Part shown: piece by piece, positions 9,889-13,854 of the stretch
How positions within the stretch are numbered: the stretch's first letter is position 1
Layout of the letters: the number at the start of each line of letters is the position of its first letter
Assembly: GCF_021531475.1 (NCBI RefSeq)
Contig: NZ_JADYTX010000025.1
Location: 1-33,029 of the forward strand
Reading direction: 5' to 3'
Length of the DNA stretch: 33,029 nt
Source of the DNA: Fusobacterium perfoetens
GTDB lineage: Bacteria > Fusobacteriota > Fusobacteriia > Fusobacteriales > Fusobacteriaceae
Program-made: the position numbers and the translations under genes
Notes under the pieces: model-generated
Seen by the model: only the letters and a program-made list of their open reading frames with translations
The model's database searches: none
What the model was told of the DNA's origin: nothing

Positions 9889-11013
9889 CTATCTTTTTGG
9901 TTTTATAAAGGCTTTTCTTATTATAATCTCCCCTTTTTTAGGATATGTAATCTCAAGATGAAGAGGACCTCTCTTTACAGATACCCAAGAAAGTCCTTTA
10001 AATACAAGTTCTTCTCCACTTTCTACAACAAATTCTTCTGTAACCAAATCTTTTAAATCAGGAGAATCCCAACAATCATCACAAGGTGGATAGAACAGAT
10101 CTCTTCTATTAGAAGTTTCAAGCTCTTTTGCTTTTTCTAAGTTTGTATCGTGATAACTTATATTTTTTGACGCATAAACAGAGAATATAGGGTCAAACTC
10201 GTTTTCACTAAGAACTCTCATCTTAACAAGTCCACCGATAAATATCACTCTATCTTTACCAGTTTTATAAGTTTTTCTAGAAATCTCCATTGATGGAACT
10301 ATATCAAGGTTACATTTTTCACATACTAAATCTGAAAATCTTCCCTCAGGTATTAGCCCCGGAGTATCAATAAGAGTTATATTTCCATTTGTAATTTTTT
10401 TCTTAGAACTTTTTAGAGTAGTTCCAGGATATTTTGATTCAGTGGCGATATTTTTACCGATAATTCTATTTATTATACTTGATTTACCTACGTTTGTAAC
10501 CCCAAGAACAATAGCTCTTACACCGTCAGGGAAGAAATGATTTAATTTTTTATAAATTCCACTTATTCCATAACCTTTTTTGCTACTTACAATAGCCACA
10601 TCAAGAGGAGCTATCCCCTCTTCTCCAAGACGATATTTTATCCAATCAGCCACTTCTGATGGGTGTTTATCATCTGGTATCAAATCTATTTTATTAAGAA
10701 CAACTATAGAATCCATCTCTCTTAAAATATCAAGGATTTCATAGTCAAAAGACCCCTCAAAATCTATGGCGTCAAATATTGCCACAGCCACATCAGCGTC
10801 TTTTAAAGCCTCGTGTACCTCTTTTCTATAATCAAGTCTTGATAAAGTTATAGGAAGATACTCCCCATAGTTTTTTATTTTAAAACATCTTTGACAGTAC
10901 AGATCTTTTCCTTGATTTTCATCTTTTTCCAAAACTGAAAGAGGAAGAAACCCCTCTTTATTTTTATCTGTTCCTTGTAGCTCTATACCACAACCAACAC
11001 AAAATTTACTCAT
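9889..11013 (-). CDS. yqeH: Circularly permuted ribosome-assembly GTPase YqeH
   Basis: This 374-residue protein has an N-terminal zinc finger (C5-x2-C8 and C40-x2-C43) followed by G motifs in permuted order: NKID (G4, 107-110), VSSKKG (G5), GVTNVGKSS (G1, 171-179), PGTT (G2) and DTPGL (G3, 216-220). That order defines the YqeH/YlqF/RsgA group, and the zinc finger identifies YqeH, which acts in 30S subunit assembly. The C-terminal half, with another Cys pair (CEKC) and CDDCWDSPD, is typical. It lies 12 bp after hslV, in the place where hslU is found in the Bacillus codV-clpQ-clpY arrangement. Confidence 0.93.
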   Translation of the reverse strand: MSKFCVGCGIELQGTDKNKEGFLPLSVLEKDENQGKDLYCQRCFKIKNYGEYLPITLSRLDYRKEVHEALKDADVAVAIFDAIDFEGSFDYEILDILREMDSIVVLNKIDLIPDDKHPSEVADWIKYRLGEEGIAPLDVAIVSSKKGYGISGIYKKLNHFFPDGVRAIVLGVTNVGKSSIINRIIGKNIATESKYPGTTLKSSKKKITNGNITLIDTPGLIPEGRFSDLVCEKCNLDIVPSMEISRKTYKTGKDRVIFIGGLVKMRVLSENEFDPIFSVYASKNISYHDTNLEKAKELETSNRRDLFYPPCDDCWDSPDLKDLVTEEFVVESGEELVFKGLSWVSVKRGPLHLEITYPKKGEIIIRKAFIKPKR

Positions 11014-11025
11014 TTAACCTCCAAA

Positions 11026-11559
11026 TTATATTTTTTCTACAATAATATTAGAACTTGTATAAATACAGATAGAACTTGCTATTAAAAGTGCCTCACGAGC
11101 AATATCTTCGGCACTCATATCAGTGTGTTTTAAAAGAGCAAGCCCAGCGGAATAGGCGTAATTTCCACCACTTCCTATTGCTAGCAAATCTTCTTCAGGC
11201 TCCAAAACATCTCCATTTCCAGAGATTGAGAAAAGTCCATCTTTTCCTCCAACAACGATAGATGCCTCCATCTCCTTTTGAAATTTATCGTTTCTTATAT
11301 CTTTTGCAAGTTCAACAGCAGATTTTTTTAAGTTTCCTCTATACTCATCTAAGTATTGTTCAAATTTTTCTTCCAAGACAAAAGCGTCAGCAGCTATCCC
11401 TGCAAATCCCAAAACTACATCATAATCTTTTATTTTACGGATTTTTCTTGCTTTTGATTTTACTATTGTATCTCCCAAAGTTACTTGCCCATCACCAGCA
11501 ATAGCAACCTCGTCACCTTTTTTTACAATTAGTATTGTAGTTGCTTTCATTTTTTCCAC
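11026..11559 (-). CDS. hslV: ATP-dependent protease peptidase subunit HslV (ClpQ)
   Basis: This 177-residue N-terminal-nucleophile peptidase reads MEKMKATTILIV at its start, so six residues precede the catalytic Thr (T7), as in B. subtilis ClpQ which also carries a short leader. Counting from T7 as 1, the expected D17 (D23), K33 (K39) and S124 (S130, in AIGSGGNYA) are all in place, so the active site appears complete. The start is GTG at 11559, 9 nt after GGAGG; the internal ATG at 11550 is too far from it. HslV normally needs the unfoldase HslU. That gene is not next to it here, so the partner must be elsewhere or absent. Confidence 0.95.
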   Translation of the reverse strand: MEKMKATTILIVKKGDEVAIAGDGQVTLGDTIVKSKARKIRKIKDYDVVLGFAGIAADAFVLEEKFEQYLDEYRGNLKKSAVELAKDIRNDKFQKEMEASIVVGGKDGLFSISGNGDVLEPEEDLLAIGSGGNYAYSAGLALLKHTDMSAEDIAREALLIASSICIYTSSNIIVEKI

Positions 11560-11577: not shown

Positions 11578-12462
11578 CTACAAATTGCTATTTATATTCA
11601 AACTTTTTAAAATCACAGGTTTTTTTATAAGTTCTTGATAGATTTTAGTAGTCTCTACACTTAGATGTCCCATAAGTTTTTTTAAGTAGTATATGTTCAT
11701 TCCGTGAGAAAGCATATAAGCTCCAAAGGTATGCCTAAATATAAAAGGATTTACCTCCTTAGAAATTTCGGCTCTCTTTCCATATTTTACCAAAAGCCGT
11801 CTCAAAGAACGGTCACTCAATCTATCAGCAGAACTATTTACAAAAATAATATTTTCATTATATTTATCTTTAAATTTTATTTTTTTAGCCTCTAAATACA
11901 TTTTTAGATATTTTCTAGCAGTTTCACTGAAGAAAACTCTTCTTATCTCTTTACCATTTGCAATGATAATCTCTCTTTCATTAAGATTTATCGCCATTTC
12001 ACTTAGCATAATAAGTTCGTTAGGTGTCATTCCTGATGAAAACAGAAGTTCAACAATAAGCCTATCACGAATACCATTACATTTGCTTGTATCAATAATA
12101 TCTCTTAACTTTTCAATTTCCTCCATAGATAAAATCTCAGGGATTTCAACTATAAAATTAGGAGTTTTTATATGTAACATTGGATTTCTCTCTATCTTCT
12201 TATTTTCCAAAAGATATTTAAAGAAAACTCTAAGAGAGGATAACTTTCTTCCAAGACTTCTTTTAGAGATATTTTCCTTTTGAAGTTTTATAGAAAAATC
12301 TCTAAGGTCAGTAGAGGATATTTTTTTAATATCTTGGATACTATTTTCATCACAATAAGTTTTCAGTTGCTCCAAATCTTTTTTTAAAGATTTTATACTG
12401 CTTGCTTTTTTTCTCTTTGTAAACTCAGAATAAAAAAGAAAATCTTTGATAAGTTTCTCCAA
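11578..12462 (-). CDS. XerC/CodV-like tyrosine recombinase, catalytic residues altered
   Basis: A tyrosine-recombinase-like protein of 294 residues from a TTG start at 12462. The TTG is 6 nt after a GAGAGGGGGG site; the upstream GTG at 12480 has no such site. The SAM-like N-terminal core-binding domain and the catalytic domain are both present. In numbering from 12480 the end has R249, H250, H272 and Y281 (FRHTF, LMGHLSVETTKIYQ). Two key residues differ. The first catalytic Arg, within the family's GLRxSEL motif, is T152 (SGMTPNEL), and the His of HxLRH is F246 (PFIFRH). DNA binding could remain, but normal strand cleavage is doubtful. The position trmFO-recombinase-hslV matches Bacillus codV, so it is an old resident gene and not a recent integrase. 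Confidence 0.8.
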   Translation of the reverse strand: MEKLIKDFLFYSEFTKRKKASSIKSLKKDLEQLKTYCDENSIQDIKKISSTDLRDFSIKLQKENISKRSLGRKLSSLRVFFKYLLENKKIERNPMLHIKTPNFIVEIPEILSMEEIEKLRDIIDTSKCNGIRDRLIVELLFSSGMTPNELIMLSEMAINLNEREIIIANGKEIRRVFFSETARKYLKMYLEAKKIKFKDKYNENIIFVNSSADRLSDRSLRRLLVKYGKRAEISKEVNPFIFRHTFGAYMLSHGMNIYYLKKLMGHLSVETTKIYQELIKKPVILKSLNINSNL

Positions 12463-12501
12463 AATAATCCCCCCTCTCACTTAGATATATTTTATCACAA
12501 A

Positions 12502-13815
12502 TTACCCTATATATTCAGAAAAATTTTCTTTTAAATAAGTTATAGCTCTTTCAGAGATTTTGTTATATCTCTCTTTTTTATCTCTTATTCTTTTTCCCTC
12601 AAGGTCTCTTATCATTCCAAAGTTTGGTCCCATAGGTTGGAAATCTTTTTTCTCCTCAGTGATATATTTTATAATAGCACCGATAGATGATAAGTCTTCA
12701 AGAACTAAAGGTTCTTTTCCGATTATTTTATTATAAATATTTATTCCTGCCATAAGCCCTGTTGCCATAGCACATACATATCCCTCACTACCAGTTATTT
12801 GACCAGCAAAGAATATATTTTCATACTCTTTTAAATTAAGAGATGTTGTTAAAACCTTTGGAGAATTTATAAAAGTATTTCTGTGCATAACTCCGTATCT
12901 TACAAAATCCGCATTTTCAAGCCCCGGAATCATAGAGAAAACTCTTTTTTGCTCTCCCCATCTTAGATTTGTTTGGAATCCTACAAGGTTATATAATTTT
13001 CCCTCTTTATCGTCTTGTCTAAGTTGCACAACTGCGAAGTCTCTTGCATTAGTTCTAGGATTTGTAAGTCCTTTTGGTTTTAGTGGTCCAAAAAGTAAAG
13101 TTTTTATTCCACGAGAGGCGATTCTTTCAACAGGCATACAAGCCTCAAAAAGTTTTTCCTCTTCAAATTTCTTTAAAGGGATTCTTTCGGCGTTTATTAG
13201 ATTTTCATAAAATTTGTTATACTCTTCCTCAGTCATAGGGCAGTTTATATACTCTCCGTCCCCTTTGTCATAACGAGATTGGAAATATACTTTGTCTTTA
13301 TCAATAGACTCAAAAGTTACAATAGGAGCAGCAGCATCATAGAAATATAGATACTCATCCTTTGTAAGTTTTTTTATATTTTCAGATAAAACAGGTGATG
13401 TCAAAGGTCCACTTGCAATCAAAACTATTTTATCCATTGGAATCTCTTTTAACTCTTCATTTATAAATTCAATATTAGGGTGATTTTTCAAAATATTTGT
13501 AATTTTTTCAGAAAAAAGATTTCTATCAACAGCTAAGGCTTGTCCAGCAGGTACTCTAAATTCGTCAGCTACTTTCATAAGTAAAGAACCAAAAAGTCTA
13601 AGCTCCTCTTTCATAAGTCCACTGGCATTTCCAAGATGGTCTCCACCAAGTGAGTTACTACACACAAGTTCTGCAAAATTTTCTGTCTTGTGAGCCTCAG
13701 TAGATAATTTTGGTCTCATTTCATAAAGTTTTACTTTTATACCTCTCTCGGCTAATTGGTAAGCAGCCTCACTTCCAGCAAGTCCAGCACCAATAACAAT
13801 TACTTCTTTATTCAT
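12502..13815 (-). CDS. trmFO: Folate/FAD-dependent tRNA (uracil-54) methyltransferase TrmFO
   Basis: TrmFO makes m5U54 in the T-loop of tRNA using methylenetetrahydrofolate and FAD. From the ATG at 13815 it is 437 residues long, as expected. It begins with a dinucleotide-binding motif ([14 protein letters not shown], 5-18) and has the conserved [18 protein letters not shown] region. The two functional cysteines known from B. subtilis TrmFO appear as C52 (ELVCSNS) and C226 (EACMPVER). An in-frame ATG at 13851 exists, but TAGGAGAATAT directly before 13815 decides the start. It is the first gene of the eight-gene minus-strand block, with a likely promoter at about 13860. Confidence 0.96.
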
Positions 13816-13854
13816 ATATTCTCCTATAAAATTATTATCAAATTCGTACACAAT

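Follow-up and report, generated by a model that had tools for sequence, protein, structure and literature searches.

A degenerate recombinase at the xerC locus

The FtsK-XerCD-dif system is treated as near-universal in bacteria. Here we describe a stretch of 33,029 nucleotides from Fusobacterium perfoetens, hereafter the window (contig C25 of a genome of 2.02 Mb in 92 contigs, G000 in our sample), in which the orthologue of XerC (CodV) appears, judging from its residues, to be a former recombinase that has lost catalysis. The gene has kept its ancestral position beside trmFO and hslV, and the locus reads as follows (f1 denotes the family of the window's genome).

11578..12462 (-): XerC-position protein of tyrosine-recombinase fold, catalytically degenerate, 294 residues (domain matches, residue alignment, model m59da63398f15)
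12025..12027 (-): Thr codon at the Arg I position (SGMTPNEL), T146 of 294 or T152 of 300
11743..11745 (-): Phe codon at the His II position (PFIFRH), F240/F246
11734..11736 (-): Arg II (R243), retained; invariant in the alignment of 26/26 f1 orthologues without Arg I
11638..11640 (-): nucleophile Tyr (Y275), retained; invariant in the same 26/26
12502..13851 (-): trmFO, upstream neighbour that anchors the orthologous position (named trmFO in F. animalis)
11026..11559 (-): hslV, downstream neighbour by gene order; not found here in a number of f1 genera
9889..11013 (-): YqeH-type GTPase, the gene after hslV on the downstream side (annotated as yqeH in F. animalis)

The open reading frame spans 11578-12480 on the minus strand, 300 residues counted from a GTG at 12480. 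A TTG at 12462, behind a AGAGGGGGG stretch, is the likelier start and gives 294 residues, in agreement with the coordinates of an initial annotation of the window. In an alignment of 155 Xer proteins the residue set is T-K-F-R-H-Y, against R-K-H-R-H/W-Y in catalytic members; the beta-hairpin Lys (K171), Arg II, His III and Tyr are all present. The alignment confirms both substitutions called in the initial annotation, Arg I to Thr and His II to Phe, together with its statement that the later Arg, His and nucleophile Tyr remain, and the gene is, as was also claimed, full length in its trmFO-hslV context, with an open frame and a complete recombinase fold. Pfam Phage_integrase matches the protein with 108 bits and the SAM-like N-domain with 43 bits, and an AlphaFold model built with 28 family sequences (mean pLDDT 90.3) finds XerA, XerH, XerD and Cre among its Foldseek matches. 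The XerC model TIGR02224 scores 195 bits, under its curated 335, which is a weak argument because intact outgroup XerC proteins also fall below that value (302.9 and 293.8 bits).

Stepwise loss of catalytic residues in XerC

Our sample comprised 61 genomes: that of the window, 36 more from its family (f1) and 24 outgroup genomes of families f2-f4. From matches in the named species F. vincentii and F. animalis we infer that f1 is Fusobacteriaceae. XerC orthologues were found by similarity and verified by position beside trmFO, hslV or the YqeH-type GTPase, and the anchors for orthology by place were trmFO-xerC, recN-xerD-era and, for a third Xer protein (X3) described below, rluB-X3. Two mobile integrases (L129, L135) were left out of the counts, and L131 was reassigned from XerD to XerC (of G011) by its trmFO neighbour.

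XerC lies at its ancestral place with an open frame in 37/37 f1 genomes. Arg I is absent from 26 of these proteins (Thr in 23, Lys in 3). At the His II position these 26 have Tyr (16 proteins), Phe (6), Ile (1) or the original His (3), and 6 have lost His III. The remaining 11/37 retain an intact R-H-R-H-Y set, and all come from the early-branching genera g3, g5, g7, g9, g12 and g14; the set is likewise intact in 23/23 outgroup XerC proteins (G057 has no XerC). Phe at His II occurs in 6/7 genomes of the window's genus, Tyr being commoner elsewhere. On a species tree built by a quick method from TrmFO, Era and HslV (35 f1 genomes and two outgroups; G016 and G034 stand outside it, no trmFO having been found at their loci), the loss of Arg I is a single change at the base of a 24-genome clade (SH-aLRT 100), and the losses of His II and His III are two changes each.

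The question of whether the Thr and Phe are fixed at this locus thus has a divided answer: Thr is nearly so in the derived genera (23/26), and Phe is not. Relatives with a normal Arg and His, which the initial annotation took as a sign of a private mutation or a sequence error, do occur, though only in the 11 genomes of six early-branching genera. Neither a private mutation nor an error is borne out, as the loss of Arg I is one old event seen in 26/37 genomes. The homologues in F. vincentii SB055 and F. animalis SB029 carry Thr/Tyr/Leu at Arg I/His II/His III, and the latter adjoins trmFO in its annotated record. A search of a genome-contig collection with the window protein returned four remote matches only, none from Fusobacteria. 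As to gene order, hslV was not found behind xerC in part of g2 and in g4, g6 and g8, where trmFO and the YqeH-type GTPase are still present.

Decay of XerD and FtsK

Two further losses, of XerD catalysis and of the FtsK motor, go beyond what the initial annotation had noticed. A XerD-like protein is found at recN-xerD-era in 36/37 f1 genomes (the exception, G003, has 86% completeness), and none of the 36 retains Arg I. The His III-Tyr segment is lost in most of them; its Tyr persists in the 11 genomes with intact XerC, and the Tyr that the alignment places there in two g8 proteins, which have no such segment, is a chance one. Much of the C-domain is gone in some genera, and the RQN helix is retained in 17/36. 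The C-terminal tail with its IGD motif is present in 36/36, intact outgroup XerD proteins having IGD, LGD or IGE there; in XerCD and Cre structures this tail docks into the neighbouring recombinase. A model of the G000 XerD (pLDDT 87.3) matches XerA and XerD and, lower down, the non-catalytic repressor YopR/MrpR. With the same protein as query, no XerD match was obtained in F. vincentii.

The FtsK gamma domain is found in 24/24 f2-f4 genomes and in 1/37 f1 genomes (G014, 31 bits). The FtsK/SpoIIIE motor exceeds 180 bits in all 24 outgroup genomes, and no motor orthologue was found in the 37 f1 genomes; apart from scraps there is one strong match, in G015 (138.6 bits), which sits in a 1639-residue frame and was taken as a different protein. 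G000 yielded neither gamma nor motor. In the f2-f4 loci examined, ftsK directly precedes maf-mreB or mreB, and at the corresponding ftsK-maf-mreB locus of f1 a short motor-less protein is found in G014, G010, G017, G024, G026, G028 and G035. The G014 stub (L352:2023-3147) is a membrane protein of 375 residues with a gamma-like C-terminal end. By position, such stubs were also read in G008, G015, G022, G025, G029 and G031 (six of eight loci), that of G008 being cut at its N-end and possibly carrying a degraded gamma domain and that of G031 being a fragment. Because a motor-less stub occupies the ftsK locus, the f1 loss looks like a deletion of the motor. MreB was not found in G000 or G002 (best candidates frames of about 610 residues at 35% identity), whereas it is present in each of the eight further f1 genomes searched. 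In G000 the anchor for placing an FtsK stub is thus lacking. The working partners of XerC, a catalytic XerD and FtsK gamma, were thus not found together in G000 or elsewhere in f1, and the FtsK/XerCD/dif pathway as a whole appears to have been dismantled in this family.

A second and independent decay of XerD is seen in the f4 genus g17, with XerC and FtsK seemingly intact. In G042, G045 and G047 (L153, L157, L159) the XerD catalytic residues are lost, and in G039, G050 and G053 there are N-terminal matches only, in frames of 166-180 residues. These six genomes lack a canonical dif, which is present in six relatives with intact XerD; in G048 XerD is intact yet the canonical dif was not found.

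A third Xer protein with a symmetrical dif site

The initial annotation had suggested that dif recombination was left to another Xer protein and proposed a search for a second complete Xer and a dif site. Both were found. X3 is encoded intact at G000:C39:8569-9540 (324 residues) and occurs in 36/37 f1 genomes, mostly behind an rluB-like gene; it is absent from G034 (92% complete). The 24 f2-f4 genomes hold no orthologue, only remote matches of at most 34% identity. R-H-R-H-Y is complete in 34/36 X3 proteins, the exceptions, G014 and G033, being truncated at a contig end or interrupted by a broken frame. Three complete f1 chromosomes were sampled (G011, G023, G025), and in each the distance from X3 to the GC-skew switch is about 45 kb or less. 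A terminus half-way round the deposited G011 and G023 contigs was considered and proved wrong: skew is mostly positive there, and further stretches put the switch near X3.

The best NCBIfam model for X3 is XerA_Arch (NF040815; 126 bits, cut-off 220), and XerS (NF003462) gives 71 bits against a cut-off of 267. The best match in the PDB is the XerA-like 4a8e, and solved XerH (E = 1.2e-5) comes well behind XerA and XerD. Chain 14 of PDB 9i5v bears the label 'Ribosome-associated translation inhibitor RaiA' but has sequence matches to tyrosine recombinases, so its label or chain assignment looks wrong. No close mobile relative of X3 was found in plasmids or phages; the sole close plasmid match belongs to a record of chromosome size that was filed under plasmids. 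Two Fusobacterium records in PLSDB, NZ_CP084075.1 and NZ_CP077186.1, look like chromosome sequence filed in this way, one of 2.1 Mb with chromosomal genes and the other of 219 kb with topA, trmFO and ftsY.

Downstream of X3, in an AT-rich stretch, lies a 28-bp inverted repeat of 11-6-11 form; in F. vincentii it reads ACTGCATATAA-TTAACA-TTATATGCAGT, about 370 bp behind X3. With the core ATATAATTAACATTATAT at no more than one mismatch, and with true and chance matches told apart by X3 linkage and outer boxes, 19 f1 genomes from 7 genera were accepted as having a true site. The site is at most 1 kb from X3 in 15/19, 4.3 kb in G015 and 22 kb in G011, where it lies at the skew switch; this is the only genome in which the core places the new dif relative to the terminus. 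In G000 (C56:173-190) and G021 it is on a different contig from X3. The arms match each other in 7-11 of 11 positions, perfectly in 8/19 as well as in F. vincentii and G026. In G016, G026 and G028 a different spacer separates the same arms.

Around the site, outer boxes resembling AATAATNATTATT are centred near -32 and +40, with at least 11 of 12 letters in 12/19 sites on the left and 13/19 on the right, a score that shuffles reach in 1.8% (left) and 2.1% (right); these boxes may resemble Fur/PerR-type boxes. Core matches in f2-f4 and second or odd matches in G006, G009 and G028 were judged to be chance, outer boxes being absent. Viral contigs gave no match to the 20-mer and 3 to a shorter pattern, judged chance by their flanks, at least one of them at 49% GC.

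In the outgroups dif is of another, asymmetric kind, AGTCCGATAA-N6-TTATGTNA, exemplified at the skew switch of G058 (f4) by AAGTCCGATAA-TGTATC-TTATGTAATTT, with like sites in many f2-f4 genomes. A dif with these old XerC and XerD arms was not found in G000, and the canonical bacterial dif pattern matched the 61 genomes at control level. Symmetrical arms fit a single recombinase on both halves, as the unequal old arms fit two. Within 500 bp of the new dif in g1 and F. vincentii (L273-L277, L296) there are boxes of the form AGTCCKATW, which resemble the XerC arm of the outgroup site. Around the new dif such boxes number 12 in 18.1 kb, against a background of 0.032 per kb. We treat them as a lead only: a single genus supplies most of them, and GCTCKATW, one of six control motifs, is raised as well (7 in 18.1 kb).

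The presence of a dif-like site in G000, beside X3 in relatives and in a named species, together with X3 itself, supports the suggestion that catalysis was lost from XerC and dif recombination passed to another Xer protein. An alternative is that XerC is still an active recombinase with a non-canonical site of Thr and Phe or Tyr, with or without X3. The invariance of Lys, Arg II and Tyr in the 26 orthologues without Arg I would fit such an enzyme, as would the 11 f1 genomes that retain the full R-H-R-H-Y set though FtsK and XerD catalysis have already gone. A conserved Tyr does not imply cleavage, however, because MrpR, which has lost most catalytic residues, is described as using its Tyr for DNA binding, no recombination having been seen (PMC10516654). 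The single loss of Arg I, followed in the same clade by losses of His II and then of His III, and the failure to find a dif with the old arms in G000 also speak against activity, and we regard this alternative as very improbable.

Selection on the degenerate recombinases

The ratio of nonsynonymous to synonymous change (Ka/Ks), computed by Nei-Gojobori over 14 genome pairs, is 0.05-0.15 for f1 XerC, 0.05-0.35 for f1 XerD and 0.04-0.10 for X3, with 0.01-0.14 for the reference genes trmFO, era and hslV. Because Ks is high in many pairs, most weight goes to the close ones; for G002/G005 the values are 0.064 (XerC), 0.096 (XerD) and 0.062 (X3). XerC of f1 is under purifying selection. The residues unchanged in all 26 proteins without Arg I include R72, K171, R221 (in the DRSLRR helix), R243 and Y275, and this specificity helix is retained whether or not Arg I is present. 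Selection on proteins with DNA-contact motifs, and on the XerD tail, suggests that XerC and XerD are probably DNA binders. We infer from the same features that XerC may serve as a DNA-binding or structural partner, a role the initial annotation had put forward.

That both proteins are non-functional relics on their way out would accord with the step-by-step loss of catalytic residues and with the whole segments missing from XerD. This is hard to credit given that the frames are open at the ancestral place in 37/37 (XerC) and 36/37 (XerD) genomes and that Ka/Ks is well under 1. It is also improbable, though less strikingly so, that XerC now regulates transcription in the manner of the SP-beta repressor MrpR/YopR and has nothing to do with chromosome dimers. 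MrpR binds DNA with a tyrosine-recombinase fold lacking catalytic residues, according to PMC10516654, and the model of the dead XerD matches YopR/MrpR structures among others. Those matches rank below many recombinases, though, and XerC retains both the specificity helix of intact XerC and its ancestral gene order.

A somewhat more plausible alternative, which we nonetheless consider unlikely, is that XerC and XerD are kept chiefly as sequence-specific unloaders of SMC at the terminus, independently of X3 and its dif. The XerD of Bacillus subtilis is cited as such an unloader in a paper of 2025 (PMC12322038). ScpA is present in 60/61 of our genomes, and the DNA-contact residues are kept in XerC and the RQN helix in 17/36 XerD proteins. 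It is XerD, however, that evolves faster of the two (Ka/Ks up to 0.35) and has largely lost its C-domain in some genera.

A model for the replacement of XerCD

The order of decay can be read from the tree. At the root of the family, where X3 is present, the FtsK motor and XerD catalysis disappeared; XerC then lost Arg I, once. Later came the loss of its His II (His to Tyr, and to Phe in the window's genus) and then, twice, of His III. X3, with its own symmetrical dif near the terminus, has probably taken over. We propose, as the likely explanation, that XerC is non-catalytic, XerD dead and the FtsK motor gone, that X3 and the new dif resolve chromosome dimers without FtsK, and that XerC and XerD are kept as binders. 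Most probably, X3 alone binds both like arms of the new dif and brings together two copies of it on a dimeric chromosome, resolving the dimer with no need of FtsK, in the manner of archaeal XerA. XerC would persist, as would XerD with its specificity helix and C-terminal tail, for DNA binding and probably mutual contact, possibly in a complex bound at the terminus that aids synapsis or SMC unloading. It is conceivable, though doubtful, that the dead complex binds beside the new dif (at the -32/+40 boxes or at AGTCCKATW) and replaces FtsK as the regulator of X3; if so, a recombinase pair has been converted into the regulator of its own successor.

Several observations weigh against replacement by X3 and the new dif. 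The core of the new dif is missing from 18/37 f1 genomes, and there is no clear dif in any genome of g5, g7, g9 and g14 or in most of g8 and g12 (the three genomes with another spacer aside). Both dif patterns give chance matches near control level in AT-rich genomes. In G000, where X3 is on C39 and dif on C56 (at 173 bp from its end), no linkage of the two is visible. The function of X3 is assigned from context, since it scores under every curated Xer cut-off, and XerC could have residual cleavage activity, since Lys, Arg II and Tyr are kept throughout.

A whole bacterial family, including Fusobacterium species found in the mouth and in colorectal tumours, appears to lack the FtsK motor and a catalytic XerCD. 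Its Xer proteins seem to have been kept in non-catalytic form at their ancestral places while a new Xer/dif took over, with the outgroup, the basal genera and the derived genera representing intermediate stages of the replacement. The analysis provides a dif sequence and a recombinase gene, and a way to probe the roles of XerC and XerD apart from recombination. A term search of the open-licence literature found no publication on Xer, dif or chromosome dimers in Fusobacterium, and the main text of Kono 2011 is without Fusobacteria.

Comparison with known systems

The window protein shares with XerC/CodV of XerCD-dif-FtsK the trmFO-xerC-hslV locus, the fold with both domains, a DRSLRR-type helix and the Lys, Arg II, His III and Tyr. 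It differs in that Arg I and His II are lost, XerD is dead, there is no FtsK motor and the old dif was not found in G000. MrpR/YopR, like XerC and XerD here, has kept the tyrosine-recombinase fold and lost catalytic residues. It is described as retaining its Tyr and binding DNA (PMC10516654), whereas for XerC and XerD of f1 we have conserved DNA-contact motifs only; it also differs as a prophage transcription repressor of distant sequence that is not at a Xer locus (PMC10516654).

Streptococci have a 'XerD-like' relic, and the XerD of Bacillus subtilis is also a recombinase. The SMC unloading described for the latter (PMC12322038) is a terminus role of a Xer protein other than recombination, to which XerC and XerD of f1 may be a parallel. 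Among systems in which one recombinase is linked to its own terminus dif, XerS/difSL of streptococci and XerH/difH of epsilon-proteobacteria resemble X3 (PMC5357621, PMC2731167). Both are described as dependent on FtsK, whereas f1 is without the FtsK motor. XerL of Legionellales (PMC9765430) is another recently reported unconventional dif/Xer system; it was found via a mobile element, a FtsK homologue is mentioned in Legionella, and the string 'Fusobacteri' does not occur in the main text of that report.

X3 and its site also resemble XerA/dif of archaea, with one recombinase, no FtsK and a 28-bp dif of 11-6-11 form at the terminus (PMC2958812). XerA is reported to recombine its site in vitro without a partner, and the inverted repeats that flank archaeal dif, suggested there as partner sites (PMC2958812), can be likened to the flanks of the new dif. 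Unlike XerA, X3 coexists with two dead Xer paralogues, has its dif adjoining its own gene and reaches 126 bits against the XerA cut-off of 220. X3 shows what marks single-recombinase Xer/dif systems: a full catalytic set, a 28-bp inverted repeat near the terminus, and linkage of the site to its gene.
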